Shown in pieces: positions 42,042 through 58,392 of a stretch of DNA of 64,000 nt (positions are counted from its first letter, which is position 1; each line of letters starts with the position of its first letter). Origin of the DNA: Candidatus Wallbacteria bacterium (lineage in GTDB: Bacteria; Muiribacteriota; JAQTZZ01). Location of the stretch: positions 1 through 64,000 of the forward strand of contig JAQTZZ010000007.1 in the NCBI GenBank assembly GCA_028687545.1, given 5' to 3'. Under the pieces are notes generated by a model, which saw nothing but the letters and a program-made list of their open reading frames with translations, was not told the DNA's origin and ran no database searches. The position numbers and the translations under genes were made by a program.

Positions 42042-45000
42042 CTAAAAGAAACACAATTGCTCAGTCTCAGGCAGATCACGGAAGACATGAGCCTTTTTCA
42101 AGTGTTCGATCACGGTATTGTTGAGCTTGGCCCTGATCTGCAAGTCTTCCACAGAACTGAACGGTTTTTCCTTCTTGGCTTCGACGATATTGATCGCAGC
42201 CTGAGATCCGACCCCATCCAGGGCTGAAAACGGGCAGGTCAGACCTTCATTCCTGACGATAAACTGGTTCGAATCCGATGACTCCAGGGAAATCGGCAGG
42301 AAATCGAAACCTCGCTCACACATCTCAAAAGCCACTTCCAGGATCCCCGACAAATCCTCGTATCGTTTGGTTTTTTCTTCCTTGGAAAGAGTGCTGATAT
42401 AATTGATTTTTTTCCTGATCCCCTCACGACCGCAGATCACACTCTCATAATCAAAAACGTCCGGCCTGATCGAAAAATAAGTGGAATAAAAAGCCAGCGG
42501 ATGATGGACTTTGTAATAGGCGATCCGGAACGAGGCTACCGCGTAAGCCACCGCGTGAGCCTTGGGGAAAAGATACTTGATTTTCCTGCAGGACTCTATG
42601 TACCACTCAGGAACGCCATTTTCCTGCATTAATGCAATCTGTTCCGGCTTAAGTTTGTTGAATTTACCCTTTCTTACAAATTCCATGATCTCGAACGCTG
42701 TCTTTTCAGGAAGTTTCATTGAAACCAGATATTTCAGAATGTCGTCCCTCATGGTGATTACACTGGAAAATTCCTTGCCCTTTTCCACCAGGTTTTTAGC
42801 ATTGTTGAGCCAGACATCCGTGCCGTGGGTAAGTCCGCAGACCCTGACAATGTCGCCGAAATTCTTGACCTTGACGTCTTCCAGCACCTGGCGTACGAAT
42901 GAAGTGCCGAATTCCGGGACTCCCAGAGTCTTCACGTCCTGAAAAAGTTTCAGAGTTTCCCTGTCGTCAAGAGGGATCTGATCTGCTTTAAGACCGGTGG
43001 TTTCCTCTAGCATCTTGATGATCGTGGGATTGTCGTGCCCCAACAGGTCCAGCTTAACCAGCTGCTTATCCATCACATGATAATCGAAATGAGTGGTGAT
43101 CACTTGCTTGCCCTTGTCATCAGCGGGATGCTGCACAGGGCAGAAATCGAAAATCTCCTTGTCTTCCGGAAGCACGATGATTCCACCTGGATGCTGGCCG
43201 GTGGTACGTTTGATGCCTACGCATTCATTGATCAGTCTCCTGACCTCAGCCTTACGCAGCGGGATCCCCTTTTCCCGGACATATTTATCGATACAGGCTT
43301 TGACTGCCTTGTCCTGGAATGTGTTGATAGTGCCTGCTTTGAAACTCTTATTGGCTCCGAAGAGGCTTTCCGTGTAACGATGGACCTCTGCCTGAATCTC
43401 CCCTGAAAAGTTCAGGTCTATATCAGGCACTTTGTCGCCCTCGAAGCCCAGAAAGACTTCGAAAGGAATCAGAAAGCCTTCCTTTTGACACCTCACCCCG
43501 CATTTCGGGCAATTCCTGTCAGGCAGATCTGCTCCACATTCAACTGCGATTCCATGCTCAAAGTCGGAATATCCACAATCCATGCATAAATAATGCGGGG
43601 GCAGCGGGTTGACTTCAGTGATGTCGGCCATCGCTGCAACGAAAGAGCTTCCGACAGACCCCCTTGAACCAACCTGATAGCCTCTGTTAACTGAAAATTT
43701 CACTATCTTATGTGCAATGTAATACAGATCGGAAAATCCATGTTTGCAGATGGGTGTCAATTCTTTTTCCAGACGCTTTGCCACGATCTCTGGAAGCTTA
43801 TCGCCATAACGCATCCTGGCATTTTCATAGACTATCTTTTTCAACTCCTCCTCTGCATTGGCGATCTTTGGCGGGTAGAAACCCTTGGGGATCGGGGCAA
43901 TCTCCTCGATCTGCGCCGCGATCAATGCAGGATTGACAATCACTGCCAGTCTGGACATTTCTTCACCCAGGTAATTGAATTCAGCGAGCATTTCGTCTGT
44001 AGTGCGGAAAAATAACCCGGCTTGATTGGAGGATTCTTCATATCCCTGAGTAAATTGTATGATTTCACGGTTGATCGCATCATGGGGGTGGATGTAATGG
44101 GAATCTCCGGTCGCCACGCAGAGCTTTCCCGTATCCAGCGCCAGCTGGAAGAATGCCTGATTCATCCTTTCCAGGTCTTGTTCAGAGTGCAGCTTGCCTT
44201 CCCGTATCAGAAACAAATTGTTGGATTTGGGCATGATTTCCAGAAAATCGTAGAATCCTGCAATTGAGCGGAGGCGATCGGTATTTTCCGGGCTTTCCAG
44301 ATAAGCTCTGGTCAATTCTCCGGCTTCGCAGGCCGTACCCAGGAGCAGCCCCTCACGGTGAGAGAGCAGCAGGCTCTTCCTGATGCGCGGTTTCTTGTAG
44401 AAATCGTCAAGATGGGAGTAAGAAACCAGTTTATAAATATTTTTCAGGCCGGTCCTGTTCTTGACCAGGATATTGATATGATTACGCCTGGCGCTTTTCA
44501 GGTCGCTCTTCTTGTCTGAATCGTCGATCAGATAACCTTCCATGCCGAAAATCGGCTTGAGTCCCGCCTCCCTAGCTTTTTCGTAAAAATCAGGATAACC
44601 CTGTACAACCCCATGATCAGTGAGAGCAATGGCCTTGTGCCCGAATTCCCTGGCAGTGGCAACAATTTCTCCAATGTCGCTCATGCCGTCCATCGCGGAC
44701 AGCTTGCTGTGCATATGCAGCTCAACCCTTTTTTCCGGGGCAGTATCCACCCTCTTCGCGGGTTCGGAAGCTTCGATCCTCTGCGCCAGGATTACCTGCT
44801 CCTGTTCAAATTTGTCGAATTCCACCTTGCCGCGCACCATTACGAAATCGCCCTTTTCACTCGAAAAATTATCCTTCTTGAATGTTTTCACGCAAATGGA
44901 ATCGGTAAAATCATAGACATCCAACTTTATGAAACTGGTACCGCTCTTAGTCTCGATCTTTTCAATCTGAGTTATCTCCCCGTAAATCGTGACCTGCTTG

Positions 45001-45374
45001 CCTTCAAAATCAGCGAGTTCGGAGATCATTATCGCCCGTTGAGAAGAGGAATTTTTTTTCTGCTGGGGGGTTGCTTTCTCTGCCGTAGGTTTGACGGTCG
45101 GAAACGAAGGTGTTTCTTTCTTCCGATATGAGAGCCTGACCTCCTTATAACCCGGGAAAATCTCGGCGAGTGCCTTTTTCAGAAACAATTCTGCCTGATT
45201 GGAAATGTTGTCCTGCAGGTTCAGCCGGAAAGTAAGCAAAGATTCGTCCGAATCATAAGTGATGAATTCGATCGAGCATTTCCTGAGATTGTCCTCAGGG
45301 GTTTCAGGTTGAAACTTTTCCAGGGCTTTATCGAAACATTCAGTGTGCGTCGGTTTCAAATTATAAACAGGCAT
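42042..45374 (-). CDS. polC: DNA polymerase III alpha subunit, PolC type, without the inserted exonuclease
   Basis: This encodes 1110 residues. The order is N-terminal domain (1-110), OB fold (about 115-200), and PHP domain starting VELHMHSKLSAMDGMSDI (about 217). The PHP domain runs directly from GMEGYLIDD (about 278-285) to HINILVKNRTGLKNIYKLVS (299-318). In classical PolC a roughly 180-residue DEDD exonuclease interrupts the PHP at this point (TYVVFDVETTG and onward) and it is absent here. A zinc finger (CMDCGY, CPKCGVRC, about 598-630), the palm acids PDIDLNFSGEIQ (about 650), TTGQHPGGI and FPKAHAVAYA are intact. It is the replicative polymerase of this genome. It lies nine bases after the UvrD-like gene. 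Confidence 0.92.
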   Translation of the reverse strand: MPVYNLKPTHTECFDKALEKFQPETPEDNLRKCSIEFITYDSDESLLTFRLNLQDNISNQAELFLKKALAEIFPGYKEVRLSYRKKETPSFPTVKPTAEKATPQQKKNSSSQRAIMISELADFEGKQVTIYGEITQIEKIETKSGTSFIKLDVYDFTDSICVKTFKKDNFSSEKGDFVMVRGKVEFDKFEQEQVILAQRIEASEPAKRVDTAPEKRVELHMHSKLSAMDGMSDIGEIVATAREFGHKAIALTDHGVVQGYPDFYEKAREAGLKPIFGMEGYLIDDSDKKSDLKSARRNHINILVKNRTGLKNIYKLVSYSHLDDFYKKPRIRKSLLLSHREGLLLGTACEAGELTRAYLESPENTDRLRSIAGFYDFLEIMPKSNNLFLIREGKLHSEQDLERMNQAFFQLALDTGKLCVATGDSHYIHPHDAINREIIQFTQGYEESSNQAGLFFRTTDEMLAEFNYLGEEMSRLAVIVNPALIAAQIEEIAPIPKGFYPPKIANAEEELKKIVYENARMRYGDKLPEIVAKRLEKELTPICKHGFSDLYYIAHKIVKFSVNRGYQVGSRGSVGSSFVAAMADITEVNPLPPHYLCMDCGYSDFEHGIAVECGADLPDRNCPKCGVRCQKEGFLIPFEVFLGFEGDKVPDIDLNFSGEIQAEVHRYTESLFGANKSFKAGTINTFQDKAVKACIDKYVREKGIPLRKAEVRRLINECVGIKRTTGQHPGGIIVLPEDKEIFDFCPVQHPADDKGKQVITTHFDYHVMDKQLVKLDLLGHDNPTIIKMLEETTGLKADQIPLDDRETLKLFQDVKTLGVPEFGTSFVRQVLEDVKVKNFGDIVRVCGLTHGTDVWLNNAKNLVEKGKEFSSVITMRDDILKYLVSMKLPEKTAFEIMEFVRKGKFNKLKPEQIALMQENGVPEWYIESCRKIKYLFPKAHAVAYAVASFRIAYYKVHHPLAFYSTYFSIRPDVFDYESVICGREGIRKKINYISTLSKEEKTKRYEDLSGILEVAFEMCERGFDFLPISLESSDSNQFIVRNEGLTCPFSALDGVGSQAAINIVEAKKEKPFSSVEDLQIRAKLNNTVIEHLKKAHVFRDLPETEQLCFF

Positions 45375-45383
45375 CTAATAAAC

Positions 45384-48300
45384 TCACATCTTCTGCAGCG
45401 GCGCGTATTTCATCATCAGTTTTTTCTGACCTTCGTTCTCAAACTCGATCGTCAGCATGGCTTCTTCACCTGACCCGTCGATCTGAGTGATCACGCCGCG
45501 ACCCCACATCCTGTGAGATACCATGTCTCCGATCTGAACCCCGGCTTTAATGTTTTTCTTACCGGCGTCAGCCACTGCTTTTCTGGTATCTGCGGACTGT
45601 TCTTCTTTTTCCTCCGTAAAAATCTTGCCCAGACACTTGGAGAGGAAAGGTGTCAATTTTCCACTGCTCTGCTCCCCAGGGAGCCTGCGATAGGAAGCGT
45701 AACTGAGAAAAATCCGCTCCCTCCCACAAGCCAGAGCTCTCAGGAACAGATCCATTTCTCTTTTACTTTCCTGGGAAAGCCTGTAGGGTGTAATCCCGTC
45801 TTCAAGCCCGGGCAGGAAAAGCACCGGAAAATTCAATTGGTGGACTATCGAATAATCAGTAAGCAGGATCGCATTTTCCTCGCAATAATCATCAAGCGGA
45901 TTCTGGATCACTAGGTAATCCAGAAAATCGATCAGACTACGATCGGCATGGCCTTCAAAAAAGGCGCGCATTTTTTCAGGGAACAGTTTGACATTGCTGA
46001 TCGCATCAAAGGACTTGTTGCTGTTGACTTTGGAGATCTCACTGATCACATCACTCTTTTTGATCATTACATCAACAAACTCGGTCGGGGAAAATTTTCC
46101 TGAATCCACGATCAGTTCCTCAATCAGGTCCCTGAAACCTTCGACCTGTTTCACGAATCTGAGGGGAAATTCTTTCAGCTGCAGCACGGCTTTCAGAGAG
46201 TCATAAAAAGACGAGCCGGTTTTCTTCATGTTTTCTTCGATCAGGTCAATGGTCCGTTCCCCGATTCCACGCCGTGGTACATTAATGATGCGCTTCAGGC
46301 TGAGATCATCTTCAGTATTGAAAATCACACGCAAATATGAGATGAGATCCTTGATTTCTTTATAGATATAATAATTTTCGCTGCTGATGATCCGGTGGGG
46401 AATGCCTTTCTTATTGAATTGTTCCGCGAAAACGTCAGCCTGGCGGGGCAGGCGGTAGAGAATCCCGAAATCTGCATAAGCCCGGCCTTCTTTGAAAATA
46501 ATGGCCTGGATCTTGTCGATGATATAATTTACTTCACCATGCTCGTCGTGGGCATTATAAAGAACGATTCTGGATTGAGGTTCGGATTCCTCAGTCTGGG
46601 AAGATATCATTTTTTCCTCTCGGAATTCATTTGCAAAAGACAGTATCTGCGGATTGTTCCTGTAATTCCTGGTAAGCTTCCGGGTTTTCAGATTTGGAAA
46701 ATCCTTTATAAGGGCATTCAGGGAGTTGAACTGCCCCTTGAATCCCGCAGGAGAAGAATTATGGACCACAATTCCTTCCACCACGAAATTTCTATAATCA
46801 GGAAGGTTCAGGTCAAATACTTCACCGTTGTATTCCATCCAGTCCACTGATGCAACGGTATCTTCTTTGATCCTGTCCCCGCATACTACCGGGATCCACA
46901 TGCCGGATTGGACATGGCTTGCCGGCATGAACTGGAACGGGGCTCCGTCTGTGGCCTTGATCAGTTTGAGGGTTTCCAGGGTTTCGATTGAACTGAGCGT
47001 TGCGCCGAACTTCAAGGCATCCTCGAATTTCTTCTTTTCAGTCTGGACATACCAGTTTTCACCCTTGGATTTGATGGGCTTAAGATCGCGATCGAAAATC
47101 TTGGGATCAGCGTTCAGTTTAAGCAGATGCTGATGCCAGCGTTCCTTGAATTCACCGCCGAAAAAAATCATTTTCAGATGCTTGCCGTCAGGACCCTGTA
47201 ATGCATAATGGGGATAAGAATCATAGAGGAAAAAGTCCCGTTTGAGGCGTTCCACTTTCTGATCCAGTTCCAGGGCTTCCTTAAATTTGAGAACCTCGCT
47301 TGATTTCAACCGCTGCACTGTCGAAAAAAACGGGATCCCGTAAAGGCAGGAAAGATATTGTTGATAATAAAGGGCTTTGGAGGAATCCCGGAAAGTCCTT
47401 AAAATCCAGATTCTGACTATGGCTTCTTTTTTTTTGGAATGGTTGCGTTCAAAATCGTGTTCAAGCAATGAAAGCCAGCTGCCGTTTTTGTCCCTGACCA
47501 GAGCGACTCTATATCCTTCACCCTCGCTCATGCGGGCAAACATTAGATGGTTCGGGGTTACCACAACCTCTCTGCCGCCTTTGGTAGAAATTCTGATTAC
47601 CAGTCCCTGATAATTCTTCTTCTCTATTTCCTCGACTCGTCCCTCGCTGATCTTGCCGAATCCGGCAGCGCATTTGAGCCGCTCACCTTTACGGGCTTCA
47701 GTAATGGAGATGTCTTTTCTGGCTGTGGAAAGTCTGCTGCCTGCTGTAATGCAATATTCCCCGTCTGTAGTGACCCAGATTTTTTTGCCGTCTGCGATTG
47801 TTTTGAACAGTTCGTATTCGGCAGGTGTCAGTAATTCCAGTCCGTCCAGGATCAGGAATTCCTTTTCCAGGAAAAAATCATCCAGCTTCTTCTTTTCAGA
47901 ATGATAGGCGTCATAGATCAGTTTTTCCGGTACAGAGATGCTCAGTTTGCTGAGTTTTTCTTCAAATTCCTGCCTGATTTTCTGAAATTCCTCGTCTTTT
48001 GAGATATCACCACCACTCTGGTAAAAGTTCAACCAGTTTGAGAGAAATTCTTCACGTTTCTTTTCGTTCAGTTTGAGCAGCAGTTCCGAATTTTCGCAGA
48101 GATCTGCATAACCGTAAACCGTACCTTTTTTTCCGCTCAGGAACCGGTAAAAATCAATTGCCAAAGCTGAAATGGTGGAAAATTTGATCCTGGAGAGTGA
48201 AGAAGCGAGAAAGAGTTCCATTTCCTCTTTAAGGCAGCGGATCGAAAACAGGTCAGGGGCAATCACCAGGATTTTCTCAGGAGCAATTTTCCTTGATTCG

Positions 48301-48428
48301 ATCAGGTGGATTATTTTATAGATGAGAGATCTGGTTTTTCCGGCTCCTGCACCTGCAGAAACTGCAATGTCATCTTCGAGTACGCAACTCTTCTGATCAT
48401 CTTCAAGGTAATCCAGAAACTTATACAT
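45384..48428 (-). CDS. UvrD/PcrA-like protein with intein and degenerate helicase motifs
   Basis: This encodes 1014 residues: 682 of extein and a 332-residue intein (226-557). The extein has Walker A SAGAGAGKT (24-32), motif IV LTRNYRNNPQIL, RRGIGERT and VLFLPGLEDGITPY. A C-terminal PcrA/UvrD-type Tudor-like tail (GDMVSHRMWGRGVITQIDG) is known to bind RNA polymerase in PcrA. Motif II is LDGLELL instead of VDEYQDT. Motif III (split by the intein) is TTDGEY/SSPAGFKG instead of GDxxQSIYxFRG. The HxxKGLEF of motif V and the TR of motif VI are missing. It can probably bind but not normally hydrolyse ATP. It is just upstream of polC. Confidence 0.8.
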   Translation of the reverse strand: MYKFLDYLEDDQKSCVLEDDIAVSAGAGAGKTRSLIYKIIHLIESRKIAPEKILVIAPDLFSIRCLKEEMELFLASSLSRIKFSTISALAIDFYRFLSGKKGTVYGYADLCENSELLLKLNEKKREEFLSNWLNFYQSGGDISKDEEFQKIRQEFEEKLSKLSISVPEKLIYDAYHSEKKKLDDFFLEKEFLILDGLELLTPAEYELFKTIADGKKIWVTTDGEYCITAGSRLSTARKDISITEARKGERLKCAAGFGKISEGRVEEIEKKNYQGLVIRISTKGGREVVVTPNHLMFARMSEGEGYRVALVRDKNGSWLSLLEHDFERNHSKKKEAIVRIWILRTFRDSSKALYYQQYLSCLYGIPFFSTVQRLKSSEVLKFKEALELDQKVERLKRDFFLYDSYPHYALQGPDGKHLKMIFFGGEFKERWHQHLLKLNADPKIFDRDLKPIKSKGENWYVQTEKKKFEDALKFGATLSSIETLETLKLIKATDGAPFQFMPASHVQSGMWIPVVCGDRIKEDTVASVDWMEYNGEVFDLNLPDYRNFVVEGIVVHNSSPAGFKGQFNSLNALIKDFPNLKTRKLTRNYRNNPQILSFANEFREEKMISSQTEESEPQSRIVLYNAHDEHGEVNYIIDKIQAIIFKEGRAYADFGILYRLPRQADVFAEQFNKKGIPHRIISSENYYIYKEIKDLISYLRVIFNTEDDLSLKRIINVPRRGIGERTIDLIEENMKKTGSSFYDSLKAVLQLKEFPLRFVKQVEGFRDLIEELIVDSGKFSPTEFVDVMIKKSDVISEISKVNSNKSFDAISNVKLFPEKMRAFFEGHADRSLIDFLDYLVIQNPLDDYCEENAILLTDYSIVHQLNFPVLFLPGLEDGITPYRLSQESKREMDLFLRALACGRERIFLSYASYRRLPGEQSSGKLTPFLSKCLGKIFTEEKEEQSADTRKAVADAGKKNIKAGVQIGDMVSHRMWGRGVITQIDGSGEEAMLTIEFENEGQKKLMMKYAPLQKM
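46758..47753 (-). other. Intein in motif III of the UvrD-like protein (332 residues)
   Basis: The first residue is Cys226 (block A CITAGSRLST). Block B is GREVVVTPNHLMFARM with the TxxH. The C-terminal block is FDLNLPDYRNFVVEGIVVHN, ending in His-Asn (557), and the first C-extein residue is Ser558. All residues for splicing are present. There is no LAGLIDADG motif. The insert (about 303-375: GYRVALVRDKNG, IWILRTFRDSSKALYYQQYL) has the spacing of a GIY-YIG-like domain but with weak key residues, so any homing endonuclease is probably decayed. Confidence 0.85.
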
Positions 48429-48905: not shown

Positions 48906-48936
48906 TTATTTTAAAATTTATTTTTTGGGAGGCGAA

Positions 48937-51900
48937 ATGCAGGCCAGGACAAATATTAAAATCGCATCGATCATCTTTTCTTTTCTGATCCTGATCTCGC
49001 TGATAATTTACGGCTGTGGCGGAGGCGGTGGCGGTGGCATTCTAAGCGACCTGGTATCAACCACTCCTCAGATAGAAGTTCCGGTCAAAATCAACCTTGA
49101 ATTTACCCAGGCTTCATACCTCAAAAACGGAGCAAGCCAGAAAACTCCGGTAAATCTAGCCAAAATAATCCTGATTTTCTGGCATCTTTCTCCTGTCACT
49201 GGAGAAGTAAGCGCAGAACAGTTTGATCCTACTCTCTCTCCCTCAGCTTATTACGGAAAAAAGATGAGAAACGGGGATTACCTGATGACGTTCGGAGGGT
49301 TCGCTGATTTCAATTACAGCCTGCACAGCGGTGAAGTGAAAGTACTGGCAGGAAACAGCTATACCCTGTTCGCAATCGCCCTGGACGACCAGAATCAGCC
49401 TCAGTATTGCGGACTGAAGGGGAAAATCAACGTGCTTCCCGGTACTGTCAATGACTCAGGCACCACAAACCTCTATCAGGGCAACAGTTTCGCCACCACA
49501 CAGCTCGCTGAGGCTGGTATAGACTATGGTTTCAACCAGAGTTCAGTGCTCGGCACATCCGATAAAGTCACTTTGCATCAGCCGCAATTTATCGCACTGC
49601 TGGCCACTCTGCCTGAACAGAGTCTTTACCCGGCAGACAGTCTGGATCTCTCTTCAACCCGCGTGATCGGAGTTTTCGACGACTACGGCACAGTGGAGAT
49701 CATGAATTTCAACTGGAGCGTTAAATCAGGCGGAGGCAGCATTGCGAACAATTTATATACTGCTCCTGATTCTCCAGGCACAGTTGTCCTGACATTGTCG
49801 GCTGACCTGGCAGGCACTATCTGCAGCCTGGACCTGACGCTGCATGTGCTGGCACCAGTCCCGCCCAGCGGCAACTGGCGGCTTGCTTACAATCTGCTGT
49901 CCGGTCCATCTTCCGAGATCTGCCTCAGCAGCTCTGACGGACTGCAGCAGACGCAGCTGACCTCAAATTCCTGGATCGACGGATTCCCATCCTTCTCCCC
50001 TGACGGAAACAAACTGATCTTCCAGAGTAACCGCAATCTGGATGGTCAGATTTTCAAAATGTATATCGACGGTACTCTTGTGACTGCCCTCACCTCAGGG
50101 TCTGACGACGGACAGCCTGTTTATTCCCCTGACGGATCTAAAATCGCCTTTGTCAGAAAAACTGCAGGGATCGGCGAAATCTTTCTGATGGACTCTGACG
50201 GAGGAAATCAAGTGAATCTGACCGGCAATCCGGCAGACGACGAATATCCTGGATTCTCTACTGACGGGCAGAAATTAGTATTCAGCTCAAACCGGGATGG
50301 AAACAATGAAATCTATCTGATGCGGAATGACGGCAGCGCAGTGACCAGGCTGACCGACAATTCAGCATCAGAGATTGAGCCGCGCTTTTCAGTTGACGGC
50401 AAGATTGTATTTGTCAGTAACCGCAGCGGGAACAATGAGATCTATCTGATGCACGGGGACGGGACTCAGCTCACGCGTCTGACCAATAATGCTGCTGACG
50501 ACAGAAACCCCAGCTTTTCGCCTGACGGGACTCTGGTCGCATTTACAAGCGACCGCTCTGGAGCCGACAACATTTTCATCATGCACTCGGACGGCACCAG
50601 CCCTCAGCGCTTCATAAGCAGCTCCAGCGCCGGCAGCAGCCCTGTCTTCGGCACAATCGGACAGCCATTTCTTTCCTATATCTCACTTTCATCCACCAGT
50701 GAAACCGTTTTTCCTGATGCAGTGATCGACCTCTCCCAGATCACTGTCAGCGCCCATTATTCAAACGGCAGCTCTGCCACCGCATCAGGTATTTCCTATA
50801 CTCTGTCAGGCAGCGGTCAGCTGTCAGGATCCACCTACACTGCAACTGCAGTCTCAGGGACAGCGGAAATCACCTTTATCAGTACTGACGGCGATATCAC
50901 AAGAACTGCTCCTTTCATGATCAATATTGTTCAGACTCCGCTGAACCTGACTGTCACACTTCCCAAAACCACTCTGCTGCCAGCCGAAACTCTCAGCCTT
51001 CCTGCTTCAGGCGAAGTAGTGTATGACAGCGGCAGGACCATTGAAGCAGGCCTGAGCTGGGCGGTCAAGGCAGGGCCGGGCAGCCTGGCAGGTCTGATCT
51101 ATACTGCCGCAGCCTATCCCTGCACAGCTGAAATTACTGCTGCCTGTGTAACAGACACAATTACACTGACCAGGAATTTTGTGCTGACAGTATCGGCCTG
51201 GCCGGTTCATCTGCTGACAGTCAATCTCATTCCTGTAGAAGCGGTGACTGCAGGAGCCCAATGGAGCCTGGACAGCGGAAACACATGGAAATCAAGCGGA
51301 ACCACAGCTGAAATTGCCGAAACCTCGACCTATGAAATCTCTTTCAAAAACATAACAGGCTATGCGACTCCAGCGAATCTGCTCAAAACCATGGGAAATT
51401 CGGATACAGTGGAAACAGTGAACTATCTGCCTGTCTATCGTGTGCTGACAGTCAACCTCATTCCTGGTTCTGCAATCGCAGCCGGCGCGCAATGGAGCCT
51501 GGATTCAGGTACTACCTGGCGGAACAGCGGCGCTACAGCCGAGATTCAGCAGGCCTCAAGCTATGAAATCACCTTCAAACCGGCAGCAAATTTCAACACG
51601 CCACCAGTGATCACTGGCGTAATGAGCGGCAGCGATGAGGTGAAAACAGGGGATTATGCAGCGATTTACCATATCCTGACTGTCAATCTCTCCACTGCCG
51701 GGGCCGTATCTGCCGGCGCACAGTGGAGCCTGGACAGCGGCACAACATGGAAAAACAGCGGTTCAACCCTGGAAATCCAACAGGGTACTAGTTATGAAAT
51801 CACCTTCAAACAGATTGCAAATTTCAATACTCCTTCTGCGATCACAGGCGCAATCGCCAGCGATGAAGTGAAAACCGGGGATTATGCGGCGATTTACCAT

Positions 51901-54900
51901 GTTCTGACAGTCAATCTCTCCCCTGTCGGGGCTGTCACTGCCGGTGCACAGTGGAGCGCTGATAGTGGTACTACTTGGAAAAATACTGGAGCTACAGTTG
52001 AAATTCAGCAGGCCTCAAGTTATGAAATCACCTTCAAAACAGTCCCGAATTTCAATCCACCTCAGTCAATTACTGGCGCGATGAGCGGCAGCGATGAGAT
52101 AAAGACAGGGGACTATTCTGCGATCTTACATGTTCTGACAATAAATCTGTCACCTGCAGGTGCTGTTGCAGCAGGTTCTCAATGGAGCTCAGATGGCGGG
52201 GCGACCTGGAAAAACACAGGAACTACAATTGAAATCCAGCAGGGTTCAAGCTATACCATCGAATGCAAAACTCTCTCCAACTGGACCAGGCCAGGGGTTT
52301 ATTCTGCGATCATGCCTGGAGCTGACAGTATCGAGATCCGATCTTACTCAGCTATTTACGGTGCTTCCTGGAGCATGGCTGTCGCTGCAGCACCCTGGGA
52401 TAGCCGTGGAGCCCATACAAGCTTAAATTACAACGGGAAAATGTGGGTGATCGGTGGCGGAGGCACATCGGATAAAAATGATGTCTGGTCATCCACTGAT
52501 GCAATCTCCTGGGTCCAGATCGCGACTTCTTCAGACTGGAGCCCAAGATGCGCACATGCAAGTGTTGTTTTCAATAATAAAATGTGGGTTCTGGGTGGCT
52601 GGGAAAGCGGAACTACCGCTAAAAACGATGTCTGGTATTCGGCAAACGGCAGCAGCTGGACACAGGCTGCGACTGCTGGATGGAGCGCCAGATGGGGTCA
52701 TTCATGCCTGGTATATCAGGGCAAAATGTGGGTGATCGGTGGTTACGACGGCAGTCTCAATCACAATGATGTCTGGTGTTCTGTAGACGGGGCCAGCTGG
52801 GATCTTGTTACAGCCAGCGCAGGTTTCAGCGCCAGAAACAATCATTCCAGCATTGTTTACGATAATAAGATGTGGGTAATCGGCGGCAGCGGTTCCGGTA
52901 ATTTAAACGACGTTTGGTGCTCCACTGACGGCAAATCGTGGACTCTGGTCACTTCAGGAGCTGCCTGGACTCCAAGATGGGGTCAAGCAGGTTTTGCTTT
53001 TGACAACAAGTTATGGATCTGTGGCGGTTACGCCACCAGCGGTTTGAACGATATCTGGTATTCCATTGACGGCGCAAGCTGGACCCAAACAACTGCTGCA
53101 GCTGAATGGAGTGCACGGCAGGACCTTCCCTGCATCGTTTTCTATGACAGAACATGGGTGATCGGAGGCAGCAACGGCTCTGCTGTTACAAAAGATGTCT
53201 GGTACAGCGAAACCACTGCTCTGGATTTTCCGGTCAATCTGCCGCTCGCGCAGAAGTCGCAGACTATCGAAGTCAATTCAATCCTGACACTGCCTTCCAC
53301 TGCTGAGATCCAGTATAATGATGGATCATTCCTCGTTCAGAACATCAGCTGGAGCAATCCTTCACTCAAGGGAACGCTGTCAGGCAACAGCTACAAAGCC
53401 CCGGGAACTACTGATACCATTGAACTGCAGGCCAGTTACACTGAAAACCTGGTCACTCTCAACACGACTATGGAAATCAAGGTTGTCAGCCAGGGTTCGC
53501 TTTGGCATCAGGCTGCAGCAACCGCGGAATTTCCTGCTCGATCTGATCATGCAAGCCTTGCCTATGACAGCAAAATGTGGGTGATCGGAGGAAATGATAA
53601 CGAGTATAAAAATGATGTCTGGTATTCAACTGACGGTGCAAATTGGACTCAGAAACAAACTACCAATGATTTTTCTGCTCGTTCTAATCATTCGTGCCTG
53701 GTCTTTCAGAATAAAATGTGGGTGATCGGTGGCAGCTATGGGGCTGGCTGTTTTTACAACGATGTCTGGTGCTCAGAAGATGGCGCAGATTGGACTCTGA
53801 CGTCAGAATCCGCAGCATTCCCCGCACGCGGCAGCCACTCAAGCCTGGTCTTTGACAATAAAATGTGGGTGATCGGCGGTCAGGATTACTCCAGCCCCAT
53901 GAAGGATATCTGGTTTTCCGCGGATGGAATTAACTGGTCCCAGGCAGCAGATCCACCTTTTACAGCAAGATTTGGTCATTCCAGCATAGTCTATGACAAC
54001 AAAATGTGGGTGGTCGGAGGGAAAGATATCAACGGCTGTTTGCATGATGCCTGGTATTCGACTGACGGGGAAAACTGGACCTGCGCCACAACAAGTGCAA
54101 ATTTTTCTGCAAGAAACAAGCATTCCAGCATGATTTACGATAATAAAATGTGGGTGATCGGTGGCAGTTCATCAGCGGGTATGCCTGCCTCCCCATCCGG
54201 GCCAGTTTCTATGGACATGTCTGGGAATTCTTCCAACAATGAAGCCTGGTATTCCACGGATGGAGTGAATTGGATACAGGCTACAGCGAATGCGGATTTT
54301 TCCGCCAGAGACTGCCATGCAAGTATAGTTTACAACAGTAAAATGTGGGTGATCGGAGGGAAAGATATCAACGGCTATTTAAATGATGTCTGGTACTCAG
54401 GCAATGGCACAGCAATGGTCACACCAGTGAATCTTGCCCTGTCCACCCGCGAAGCCACGATCGAGCTTAATACTTCCTATACTCTGCCTTCCACTACTGA
54501 AGTCTATTACAATGACGGTTCATGCACTGTTCATGACATCATCTGGAGCAAAGTTTCAGGCAGCGGCAGCTATGCCAGCAATGTTTACACAGCTTCAGAA
54601 ACCACAGGGGAAGCGGTACTTTCCGCAACTTATTCCACTCTCACTTCGACAATGGAAATCCGGGTCGTAGGCCAGGGTGCAGTCTGGCATCGGGCAATAG
54701 AAAGTGCAGATTTTTCCCCGCGTGTATCTCATTCCAGCATGGTTTTCCAAAACGAAATGTGGGTGATTGGCGGACAGATAGCTGAAGACCCATATTTAGT
54801 AAATGACGTCTATTCCTCGGCAGACGGAAAAGTCTGGAATCTCCATACACCAGGAGGCAGTATTTTTTCCGAACGTTACTGTCACACCAGCCTTGTCTAT

Positions 54901-57900
54901 GATGATAAGATGTGGGTGATAGGTGGCGCCTGGGATGGTTATTTGAACGATGTCTGGTGTTCCCCGGATGGCGCAAGCTGGACTCAAGTGCCACCTGCCG
55001 GAGATGGTTTTTCTGCGCGTGGCAGCCACTCAAGCCTTGTCTATGACAACAAAATGTGGGTGATCGGTGGTATTGGCGACGGTTACTTGAACGATGTCTG
55101 GTACTCAACAGATGGCGCAAACTGGGTTCAGTTGCAGCCTGTCGGAAATGGTTTTTCTGCCCGTAGCAGCCACTCAAGTCTTGTCTATGACAACAAAATG
55201 TGGGTAATCGGAGGATATTGCTACGGTGAAGGCGGAGCTTATTATAATGATGTCTGGTATTCAACCGATGGGGCAAACTGGGTTCAAGCTACGGACAATG
55301 CTGCATTTTCCCCTCGCTGCGCCCAGACCAGCTTTGTCTATGATGATAAGATGTGGGTGATAGGCGGCTGTGATGAATCCAATTGCTTTAACGATATCTG
55401 GTATTCCACTGATGGAGTGAATTGGGTTCAAGCCACTGCCAGTGCGGATTTTACACCTAGGAGCTTGCATACCGGTTTCGTCTATGAAAATAAAATGTGG
55501 TTGATTGCAGGGCAGGATGACAACGGTGATTATCTTCAGGATGTCTGGTACTCAGACAGCGGCACTGTAGAAGTCACGCCTCTTTACATGACGCTGAATC
55601 TGGTTACTCTTGAAACTTATGCAGGCTGTACCAGCAATCTTGCTTCGATTTCCGCCACAATCTACGATTCCAATGGGACCAGCTCTGAAACAGGCAGCTT
55701 GAGTTTTGCGGCAGAGGTAGGAAACGTCACTACCGGCATCTACACTGCACCGAATCCGGCAGTGGACACGATCGAGGTCAGCTACACCGGAAACGGCAAA
55801 ACAATCACCGCGCATCTGCTGGTTCGCCAGCTCTGTTCAGATTGGATACAGGCAACCGCAGGCGCAGCATTTTCTAAGCGGCAAGCTCATTCCAGTCTGG
55901 TATTCAATAACAAGATGTGGGTGATCGGCGGGACATTGATGGTAGATGGGATGGTCAGCAGCCCAAAGAACGATGTCTGGTCTTCCACTGATGGAACTGC
56001 CTGGACTGAAGTCAAAACAAATTATCCTGGAGCAGGTTTTTCCGCCAGAGGTTATCATTCCAGCGTAGTATTCAACAATCTGATGTGGCTGATCGGCGGT
56101 ATGGAACAATATAACTACAAGAAAAATGATGTCTGGTATTCTGCAGATGGCTGCACCTGGACATCCGCTACTGCAACAGCGGGCTTCTCAGCACGTGCAT
56201 TCCATGCTTCCCTTGTTTTTGACAATAAAATTTGGGTGATCGGCGGAAATGATGGGGAAATCGATAAAAATGATGTCTGGTACTCGGCTGACGGAATAAA
56301 TTGGACACAGGCAACAGGGAATGCTGATTTTTCCGCCAGAAGCTATCATTCCAGCATAGTTTATGACAACAGAATGTGGGTGATCGGTGGATATTCCGGA
56401 GAAACCGGGGATCTGCATGATGTCTGGTATTCGACAAACGGCATCAACTGGACACAGGCTACAGCCAGCGCAGCCTGGAGCGCCAGAAGCTGCCTTGCCA
56501 GCCTGGTTTACGACAATAATATTTGGGAAGTCGCAGGAGTAACGGACGGGGCCCAGAAAAACGATGTCTGGCATTCTATCAATGGAGTGGATTGGGTTCA
56601 GGCTACTGCCTATGCCGCTTTCCCCCCAAGAGACACTCATACGAGCCTTGTGTTTGACAACAAAATGTGGGTAATCGCAGGAGATTCCAGCGGCGAGAAA
56701 AATGACGTCTGGTATTCGGAACTGTCCGGTGCTGCGAAAACACCGGTGAATCTGGCTCTATCCACCCATGAAGCAACGATTGAGGTCAGTACTTCCTATA
56801 CTCTGCCTTCCACTACCGAAGTCTATTATAATGATGGAACCTCTGTTGTCCGGAACATCACCTGGACCAAAACTTCCGGCAGCGGCAGTTTGGTGGGCAA
56901 TCTCTATACAGCTCCAGGTGCTGTTGAAGAAGCGGTTTTCACAACCACTCACACCGAAGGAGCGGTTACGCTCAATGGGACCATAGAAATCAATGTGGTC
57001 GTTTACACGCTGACAGTCAACCTGACGCCGGATCTGGCCGTTACGCAAGGTGCGCAATGGCGACTGGCCGGCGAAGGATCCTGGCGCAACAGCGGCACGA
57101 GCGCGCCGGTTTCGGGAGGATTTCCTGCCACCATCGAGTGCAAAGCGACTACCAACTGGAACACCCCGGCAACCAAGGAGATAACAATGCCTTTAGGTGA
57201 CAGCGTGGAGAGCATGGCATTTTCTGCGATTTACGGAGCAGTCTACACTTGCGAAACTTCTGCAACCGGTTCATACGCCGTTGACCACCAGAGTTTAGTT
57301 TACAATAACAAAATGTGGGTGATCGCGGGATTTGACAACAGTAGCTATACAAACAATGTTTGGTCATCATCAGATGGTAAAACCTGGACTTTAGTCACTT
57401 CAAACGCGGCATTTTCTAAACGCATATCTCATACCAGCTTAGTGTTTGACAATAAAATGTGGGTCATAGGTGGCGTGACTGCGCCAAATAATGATGCTAG
57501 TAACGATGTCTGGTATTCAGTTGATGGAGCAACCTGGACTCAGGCGACTGCGAGTGCTGCTTTTGCAGCCAGATCTGGACACACCAGCGTGGTGTTTGAT
57601 AATAAAATGTGGGTCATCGGGGGATATTATCTGAGTTACCATAACGATGCCTGGTACACAGTTGATGGAATCACTTGGACCAAGGCCACGACCAGCGCTA
57701 AACTTATACGAACAAACCACCAGAGCCTTGTTTACAACAACAAAATGTGGGTTATCGGTGGCAGCAACGATTCTGCTGTTTGGAATGATGTTTACTACTC
57801 GACAGACGGTGTCACCTGGACTCAGGCCACTGCCAGCGCTTCATTTTCTCCAAGATGTCAACATTCTAGTATTGTGCTGGACAACAAAATGTGGATAATC

Positions 57901-58392
57901 GGGGGAATCGCCGATACTTGGTCAGGTCCCTATAAAAACGATATCTGGTTCTCCACTGATGGCTCAAACTGGACTGAGGCTACGCCAACAGCTGCTTTTC
58001 CGATACGGGCCGGACATACCAGTCTTGCATTCAATAACAAAATCTGGGTGATCTGCGGCGGTGGAACTACGGGTAATAACCGCAAAAATGATGCCTGGTC
58101 ATCTTACACCAATGGTGAAGTCACACCAATTTACATGGAAACCAGCCCGAAGACACTCGAAGTTCAGGCCAGCACGGGCTATGATTGCGGGGTTAATCTG
58201 CACAAATACGTGTTCTACTCAAGCAACAGCTCCAGCGAAGTGTCAGCAGTGAGTTACGCCGCAGTGCGTGGCAGCTTTGCCGTCAATACTTACAATGCTC
58301 CGGGAACTCCAGGAGTCGATACGATCGAAATTACATATATTGAGGGAGGCAAGACTATCACGACACATGTGAGCGTGACGAACAGTCCGTGA
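48937..58392 (+). CDS. Giant multi-propeller surface lipoprotein (3151 residues)
   Basis: Start ATG 48937 has GGGAGGCG just upstream (an in-frame TTG 12 bases earlier is not used). The signal peptide ends in the lipobox LIIYGC. Order: paralogous N-module (about 48-213; YYGKKMRNGDYLMTFGGFA, YCGLKGKINVLPG), Big-like domain, TolB/WD40-like propeller (about 308-575; FSPDGxKLxFxSNR blades), two Big-like domains, and five 77-residue LTVNLxPxxAVxAGAQWS modules. Five groups of six kelch repeats then alternate with Big-like domains. A sixth LTVNL module lies before the last propeller and a Big-like tail ends it. No wall-sorting or secretion-tag signal is seen at the C-terminus. It is likely a surface or outer-membrane adhesin or glycan-binding protein. 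Confidence 0.85.
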   Translation: MQARTNIKIASIIFSFLILISLIIYGCGGGGGGGILSDLVSTTPQIEVPVKINLEFTQASYLKNGASQKTPVNLAKIILIFWHLSPVTGEVSAEQFDPTLSPSAYYGKKMRNGDYLMTFGGFADFNYSLHSGEVKVLAGNSYTLFAIALDDQNQPQYCGLKGKINVLPGTVNDSGTTNLYQGNSFATTQLAEAGIDYGFNQSSVLGTSDKVTLHQPQFIALLATLPEQSLYPADSLDLSSTRVIGVFDDYGTVEIMNFNWSVKSGGGSIANNLYTAPDSPGTVVLTLSADLAGTICSLDLTLHVLAPVPPSGNWRLAYNLLSGPSSEICLSSSDGLQQTQLTSNSWIDGFPSFSPDGNKLIFQSNRNLDGQIFKMYIDGTLVTALTSGSDDGQPVYSPDGSKIAFVRKTAGIGEIFLMDSDGGNQVNLTGNPADDEYPGFSTDGQKLVFSSNRDGNNEIYLMRNDGSAVTRLTDNSASEIEPRFSVDGKIVFVSNRSGNNEIYLMHGDGTQLTRLTNNAADDRNPSFSPDGTLVAFTSDRSGADNIFIMHSDGTSPQRFISSSSAGSSPVFGTIGQPFLSYISLSSTSETVFPDAVIDLSQITVSAHYSNGSSATASGISYTLSGSGQLSGSTYTATAVSGTAEITFISTDGDITRTAPFMINIVQTPLNLTVTLPKTTLLPAETLSLPASGEVVYDSGRTIEAGLSWAVKAGPGSLAGLIYTAAAYPCTAEITAACVTDTITLTRNFVLTVSAWPVHLLTVNLIPVEAVTAGAQWSLDSGNTWKSSGTTAEIAETSTYEISFKNITGYATPANLLKTMGNSDTVETVNYLPVYRVLTVNLIPGSAIAAGAQWSLDSGTTWRNSGATAEIQQASSYEITFKPAANFNTPPVITGVMSGSDEVKTGDYAAIYHILTVNLSTAGAVSAGAQWSLDSGTTWKNSGSTLEIQQGTSYEITFKQIANFNTPSAITGAIASDEVKTGDYAAIYHVLTVNLSPVGAVTAGAQWSADSGTTWKNTGATVEIQQASSYEITFKTVPNFNPPQSITGAMSGSDEIKTGDYSAILHVLTINLSPAGAVAAGSQWSSDGGATWKNTGTTIEIQQGSSYTIECKTLSNWTRPGVYSAIMPGADSIEIRSYSAIYGASWSMAVAAAPWDSRGAHTSLNYNGKMWVIGGGGTSDKNDVWSSTDAISWVQIATSSDWSPRCAHASVVFNNKMWVLGGWESGTTAKNDVWYSANGSSWTQAATAGWSARWGHSCLVYQGKMWVIGGYDGSLNHNDVWCSVDGASWDLVTASAGFSARNNHSSIVYDNKMWVIGGSGSGNLNDVWCSTDGKSWTLVTSGAAWTPRWGQAGFAFDNKLWICGGYATSGLNDIWYSIDGASWTQTTAAAEWSARQDLPCIVFYDRTWVIGGSNGSAVTKDVWYSETTALDFPVNLPLAQKSQTIEVNSILTLPSTAEIQYNDGSFLVQNISWSNPSLKGTLSGNSYKAPGTTDTIELQASYTENLVTLNTTMEIKVVSQGSLWHQAAATAEFPARSDHASLAYDSKMWVIGGNDNEYKNDVWYSTDGANWTQKQTTNDFSARSNHSCLVFQNKMWVIGGSYGAGCFYNDVWCSEDGADWTLTSESAAFPARGSHSSLVFDNKMWVIGGQDYSSPMKDIWFSADGINWSQAADPPFTARFGHSSIVYDNKMWVVGGKDINGCLHDAWYSTDGENWTCATTSANFSARNKHSSMIYDNKMWVIGGSSSAGMPASPSGPVSMDMSGNSSNNEAWYSTDGVNWIQATANADFSARDCHASIVYNSKMWVIGGKDINGYLNDVWYSGNGTAMVTPVNLALSTREATIELNTSYTLPSTTEVYYNDGSCTVHDIIWSKVSGSGSYASNVYTASETTGEAVLSATYSTLTSTMEIRVVGQGAVWHRAIESADFSPRVSHSSMVFQNEMWVIGGQIAEDPYLVNDVYSSADGKVWNLHTPGGSIFSERYCHTSLVYDDKMWVIGGAWDGYLNDVWCSPDGASWTQVPPAGDGFSARGSHSSLVYDNKMWVIGGIGDGYLNDVWYSTDGANWVQLQPVGNGFSARSSHSSLVYDNKMWVIGGYCYGEGGAYYNDVWYSTDGANWVQATDNAAFSPRCAQTSFVYDDKMWVIGGCDESNCFNDIWYSTDGVNWVQATASADFTPRSLHTGFVYENKMWLIAGQDDNGDYLQDVWYSDSGTVEVTPLYMTLNLVTLETYAGCTSNLASISATIYDSNGTSSETGSLSFAAEVGNVTTGIYTAPNPAVDTIEVSYTGNGKTITAHLLVRQLCSDWIQATAGAAFSKRQAHSSLVFNNKMWVIGGTLMVDGMVSSPKNDVWSSTDGTAWTEVKTNYPGAGFSARGYHSSVVFNNLMWLIGGMEQYNYKKNDVWYSADGCTWTSATATAGFSARAFHASLVFDNKIWVIGGNDGEIDKNDVWYSADGINWTQATGNADFSARSYHSSIVYDNRMWVIGGYSGETGDLHDVWYSTNGINWTQATASAAWSARSCLASLVYDNNIWEVAGVTDGAQKNDVWHSINGVDWVQATAYAAFPPRDTHTSLVFDNKMWVIAGDSSGEKNDVWYSELSGAAKTPVNLALSTHEATIEVSTSYTLPSTTEVYYNDGTSVVRNITWTKTSGSGSLVGNLYTAPGAVEEAVFTTTHTEGAVTLNGTIEINVVVYTLTVNLTPDLAVTQGAQWRLAGEGSWRNSGTSAPVSGGFPATIECKATTNWNTPATKEITMPLGDSVESMAFSAIYGAVYTCETSATGSYAVDHQSLVYNNKMWVIAGFDNSSYTNNVWSSSDGKTWTLVTSNAAFSKRISHTSLVFDNKMWVIGGVTAPNNDASNDVWYSVDGATWTQATASAAFAARSGHTSVVFDNKMWVIGGYYLSYHNDAWYTVDGITWTKATTSAKLIRTNHQSLVYNNKMWVIGGSNDSAVWNDVYYSTDGVTWTQATASASFSPRCQHSSIVLDNKMWIIGGIADTWSGPYKNDIWFSTDGSNWTEATPTAAFPIRAGHTSLAFNNKIWVICGGGTTGNNRKNDAWSSYTNGEVTPIYMETSPKTLEVQASTGYDCGVNLHKYVFYSSNSSSEVSAVSYAAVRGSFAVNTYNAPGTPGVDTIEITYIEGGKTITTHVSVTNSP
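51205..52360 (+). repeat. Five tandem 77-residue LTVNL-type modules in the giant lipoprotein
   Basis: Each module reads roughly LTVNLxPxxAVxAGAQWSxD, SGxTWxNSGxTxEIQQ, SSYEITFK, then a Gly/Asp turn and DYAAIY. The second to fourth are the closest to each other. A sixth copy is at about 57004-57237, and six diverged copies form the C-terminus of the 60141 gene (62335-63715). Confidence 0.85.
52360..58110 (+). repeat. Thirty kelch repeats in five groups of six
   Basis: Groups lie at about 52360-53215, 53498-54410, 54680-55565, 55839-56730 and 57239-58110. Each has six blades of roughly 48 residues of the type HSSLVYDNKMWVIGG...NDVWYSTDGxxW. Six kelch blades make a complete propeller, so five propellers are expected, separated by Big-like domains of about 95 residues. 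The DNA of the KMWVIGG segment is nearly the same in many blades. Confidence 0.85.

Follow-up and report, generated by a model that had tools for sequence, protein, structure and literature searches.

PolC-type replicases are described as always co-occurring with DnaE1 or DnaE3 (PMC3919608), and a DnaE-type catalytic subunit is reported from every species (PMC12926913). In B. subtilis, where PolC carries an exonuclease (Exo) domain and is paired with a DnaE3 whose PHP domain is disrupted, RNA primers are not extendable by PolC and the polymerase activity of DnaE is essential (PMC5627055). PolCs without the DEDDh Exo insert in the PHP domain, with an intact core and an intact DnaE1 partner, make up 6% of PolCs and come from the Clostridia and Negativicutes (Firmicutes), save for one extra copy in Thermotogae (Timinskas et al., PMC3919608). 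Since exo-less PolCs have already been published, a missing Exo domain alone is not new, and the initial annotation of the locus studied here was too strong in assigning the insert to every classical PolC; the new part is the genomic context. In M. tuberculosis, the proofreader of DnaE1 is a nine-ligand, trinuclear-zinc PHP exonuclease (PMC5636811), and the motif HHDHEH[C/H]DH is used for calling a PHP domain "active" (PMC12926913).

The window, i.e., the whole stretch of 64,000 nucleotides analyzed here, belongs to a 4.54-Mb genome (G000; 97.4% complete) of a lineage named 'Candidatus Walliibacteriota' at NCBI. Comparisons were made with 'Candidatus Wallbacteria bacterium STB_16' of the same family (G001; sequence L006; ~92% complete), whose PolC is ~60% identical to that of the window, with Muiribacterium halophilum (G002; sequence L007), with a sister family, f4 (G004, G008, G011, and G014), and with a phylum sample of 40 genomes, of which 17, G000 and G001 among them, are good. 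The features of the polC gene are as follows, with the basis of each in parentheses.

42042..45374, minus strand: polC, an exo-less PolC-type DNA polymerase III alpha of 1110 aa (family models, Pfam, AF2 model)
44772..44993, minus strand: N-terminal OB domain, residues 128-201 (Pfam)
44481..44525, minus strand: junction at the usual DEDDh exonuclease insertion site, residues 284-298, a 16-residue loop (9qpc and PolC alignments)
44097..44717, minus strand: PHP metal site H220, H222, D229, H254, E279, H299, C349, D424, H426 (HHDHEHCDH), complete (alignment)
43047..43424, minus strand: polymerase catalytic aspartates D651 and D653 (PDIDLNF) and D776 (KLDLLG), all intact (alignment)
42045..42059, minus strand: C-terminal clamp-binding motif QLCFF, residues 1106-1110 (comparison with QxxLF)

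The protein was identified as PolC at equivalog level (NF001688, 1315 bits against a cut-off of 873; TIGR01405, 1238 bits against a cut-off of 1043). Its reading frame (45374..42042, minus strand) begins with ATG and has an in-frame stop immediately 5', so the chain is not extendable N-terminally. Pfam detected OB (128-201), PHP (218-373), DNA_pol3_alpha, finger, and HhH domains, with OB before PHP, the PolC-specific order. When aligned with the 1474-aa PolC chain 9qpc, query residues 287|291 corresponded to chain residues 433|633; hence, ~200 aa are absent precisely at the junction, where the PHP domain had been noticed to run through without a DEDD exonuclease, an observation that our alignments bear out. 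The junction measures 16 residues here and 16-22 in other exo-less PolCs, versus 191-216 in the exo-positive PolCs tabulated with coverage at this place. An alignment check for an exonuclease elsewhere in the chain, as had been proposed, found none: Pfam gave no RNase_T match anywhere along the 1110 aa, ruling out relocation of Exo inside PolC. The initial annotation also considered the protein otherwise complete, at 1110 against roughly 1400 residues. While the polymerase, zinc finger, OB, and PHP parts are indeed all there, the segment preceding the OB domain comprises 123 aa compared with ~240 in a typical PolC. Exo, therefore, accounts for ~200 aa of the deficit, but a further ~120-145 aa is due to a shortened N-terminal region, from which roughly one subdomain is gone. 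An AF2 model built with 18 sequences (pLDDT 84.7) has a normal PolC core, the closest fold being PolC 3f2b_A (E 3e-101, TM 0.84/0.93).

Using PolC, PF07733, and TIGR00594 searches, we found one further C-family protein in the window's genome (C9:3994-6834, 947 aa). Neither a second PolC nor a PolB was found. A second full PolC or DnaE gene had been named at the outset as counting against the initial reading; a second C-family gene does exist, but its polymerase site is destroyed. When compared with E. coli DnaE by phmmer and two MAFFT alignments, PDIDIDF is replaced by LDFQINL and KIDFLG by PKISVTG, and in the orthologue from STB_16 (35-36% identity, open frame of 931-936 codons) the same motifs read LDFSFHL and PRIHISG. 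Both proteins have thus lost catalytic aspartates two and three, together with the GRGS loop, the PHP HxH, and the finger motif NKSHSAAY, while the D401 equivalent is kept; no catalytically intact DnaE was present among the C-family matches in either genome. Divergence between the two genes at the three codon positions is 0.51/0.37/0.69, and this, together with the open frame, makes the dead DnaE look still constrained as a protein; dS is saturated, so that constraint is read from codon-position divergence and intact frames rather than from dN/dS. The AF2 model (pLDDT 74.5) still aligns with structures of Pol III alpha over its whole length.

In both genomes, the dead DnaE gene is neighbored by AsnRS, GlmM, and two cNMP-binding genes (names read by eye). 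GlmM also lies near the active DnaE of the sister family, and a cNMP-binding gene adjoins the active DnaE of Muiribacterium (names likewise read by eye). Because this neighborhood is common to the active DnaEs of relatives, the dead DnaE is most simply a positional orthologue of a working DnaE and not an extra paralogue. The DnaEs of the sister family (L106-L109) have lost their PHP metal residues and kept the polymerase aspartates, plausibly an intermediate state toward the dead DnaE. No relative of the dead DnaE was found in viral contigs. A clamp-like QSSLF at residue 720 of the STB_16 protein has no counterpart in the window's genome and hence is not evidence. In the open-licence literature, we found no report of an inactive DnaE alongside PolC.

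We also searched for exonucleases that could serve an exo-less PolC. PF00929 (RNase_T) is present in 33/40 genomes of the phylum sample and in 15/17 good ones, the two good genomes without it being those of the window and STB_16, where there were zero matches (at E<=10 in the window's genome). A custom DEDDh profile built from 20 exonucleases, E. coli DnaQ and the Exo domains of PolCs among them, likewise retrieved nothing at E<=10 from either genome, while 2-3 matches each were obtained in the positive controls G002, G006, and G008. Neither profile thus revealed a stand-alone DnaQ in the window's genome, and the DEDDy domain of PolA is the sole DEDD-type domain found in these two genomes. All nine PHP ligands are present in PolC, which answers the question raised earlier about the completeness of its metal residues. 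The full motif occurs in 7/7 exo-less PolCs of the group versus 15/29 exo-positive ones (Fisher p 0.03, a guide only, since the sequences are related and the count is descriptive). The initial annotation had left three options, i.e., a separate DnaQ-like protein, the PHP domain, or no proofreading at all. The first finds no support in the genome-wide search. Of the other two, the PHP domain is the better fit, given its full set of nine ligands, and a lack of proofreading is the less likely. With a DEDDh exonuclease not found in either genome, PolC probably proofreads through its own PHP domain, its exonuclease activity being predicted from the metal site.

PHP sites in C-family polymerases can, however, be structural, and they are often inactive. 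PolC here might then work without any proofreading, its PHP domain a structural element and fidelity a matter of base selection and mismatch repair. MutS is encoded in both genomes, and other exonuclease sites have eroded in them: PolA (L125 on C40 in the window's genome; L124 on C362 in STB_16) reads HNAKYE, with Glu replacing the residue equivalent to E. coli D424, where Muiribacterium PolA retains Asp, and the PHP metal site of DnaE is gone. Yet the PHP site of PolC has been fully kept while that of DnaE was lost, so its ligands look selected, and we regard a PolC with no proofreading as unlikely. Much the same standing is given to proofreading in trans, by an exonuclease that was undetected or unassembled or by PolA, whose DEDDy domain might act in this way. 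The sister family pairs its exo-less PolC with a stand-alone DnaQ of 264-266 aa, and both assemblies are incomplete; a gene for DnaQ or for another DnaE might be hidden in the 2.6% of the window's genome or the 8% of STB_16 that is unassembled, or be too divergent for detection. Against this, DEDDh matches are absent from two independent genomes by two methods, and the D424 equivalent of PolA is Glu in both, which makes a helper exonuclease improbable as well.

The incompleteness of the assemblies (97% and 92% complete) is also what an ordinary PolC plus DnaE system would have to rely on, with the active DnaE unassembled and the dead gene a decaying extra paralogue. This we consider very unlikely, for the dead gene occupies the locus of the relatives' active DnaE, a second gene is seen in neither genome, and the chance of missing an active DnaE in both is ~0.026 x 0.08 = ~0.002 if the two are independent. 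It is just as hard to believe that the DnaE remnant has kept polymerase activity through rearranged active-site residues and extends RNA primers: its open frame, the whole C-family fold predicted for it, and the retained D401 equivalent speak for such activity, but at the positions of aspartates two and three the window's protein has Q and S and that of STB_16 has S and H, and both proteins lack the GRGS and finger motifs.

Our preferred reading, which we hold to be probable though far from settled, is that PolC is the only competent replicase, that it proofreads with its PHP domain, and that a dead DnaE has been kept. In this Wallbacteria family, no C-family polymerase other than the exo-less PolC would have an intact active site. 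This PolC would carry out the bulk of chromosome synthesis, tethered to the sliding clamp by its C-terminal QLCFF and proofreading most likely with its own PHP domain and complete nine-ligand metal site. The former DnaE, polymerase-dead and PHP-dead, would persist at its ancestral locus, probably retained as a non-catalytic component of the replisome. Four elements of this reading are inferred from sequence: that the PHP domain acts as an exonuclease, that PolC is the sole replicase, that it extends primers, and what role the dead DnaE plays. More tentatively, at somewhat less than even odds in our judgment, a PolC that is the only functional C-family polymerase, extends RNA primers, and proofreads by PHP only, with DnaE as a dead replisome scaffold, may constitute a fourth replicase set beside DnaE1-only, PolC+DnaE1, and PolC+DnaE3.

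An only DnaE that lacks its catalytic residues would conflict with the published rule of a catalytic DnaE in every bacterium (PMC3919608, PMC12926913), and also, if PolC here resembles that of B. subtilis, with the requirement for DnaE in RNA-primer extension (PMC5627055). The lineage therefore makes it testable whether PolC can start from RNA primers and whether the PHP domain of PolC can be the only proofreader; with Exo naturally gone, the PHP activity of PolC would be measurable without domain deletion. A conserved dead DnaE would parallel, within the C family, the dead subunits known among Y-family polymerases (ImuB).

The exo-less PolCs of Clostridia and Negativicutes (PMC3919608) share with the present one the absent DEDDh insert and the intact core; here, however, the protein belongs to another phylum and has a shortened N-terminus, DnaE is dead, and a DEDDh exonuclease was not found. 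Like B. subtilis (PMC5627055), the window's genome combines PolC with a DnaE whose PHP domain is disrupted, but its PolC lacks Exo and its DnaE lacks the catalytic residues. With M. tuberculosis DnaE1 (PMC5636811), the likeness is that the prime candidate for proofreading is a PHP site of nine metal-binding residues, although that enzyme is DnaE1 and not PolC, and its exonuclease activity has been demonstrated, whereas here it is predicted. Muiribacterium halophilum and the sister family share an exo-less PolC with an intact PHP domain but, unlike the window's genome and STB_16, have an intact DnaE polymerase site and RNase_T-family exonucleases.

A mixture-model tree gathers every exo-less PolC into a single clade (support 75) with one change in Exo state, while simple-model trees scatter them with low support, and a DnaE-rooted tree places the window's family as basal (support 36). 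Loss of Exo in a common ancestor of the exo-less PolCs would be the simplest reading, with primitive absence as the alternative. The stand-alone DnaQ-like protein of the sister family (264-266 aa; L070:1213-2004, L068, and L069) is ~40% identical to PolC Exo over the exonuclease and has an N-terminal extension of ~90 residues. Together with the exo-less PolC of that family, it is a candidate case of outsourced proofreading; that this DnaQ is an excised PolC Exo is not claimed, the exonuclease tree being without resolution.

The gene upstream of polC in the window is the following.

45384..48428, minus strand: UvrD/PcrA-like gene with an intein (intein ~46758-47753) (Pfam, family models, comparison)

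It ends 9 bases from polC, with which it likely shares an operon, and STB_16 (L006) has the two genes in the same order. The intein (~residues 226-557, C...HN/S) has the same position in L006:2382-5489, and in both genes the Walker B "DE" is "DG"; this ATPase, too, may be dead. Upstream of polC, Muiribacterium halophilum encodes a stand-alone protein of 353 aa whose sequence resembles an intein/Hint domain (L007:3824-4885, plus strand); in the window's family, the corresponding place is taken by the intein-bearing gene. Elsewhere in the window, positions 48925-58392 (plus strand) hold a 3155-aa open reading frame rich in kelch-like "MWVIGG" repeats, its N-terminus resembling that of a lipoprotein.
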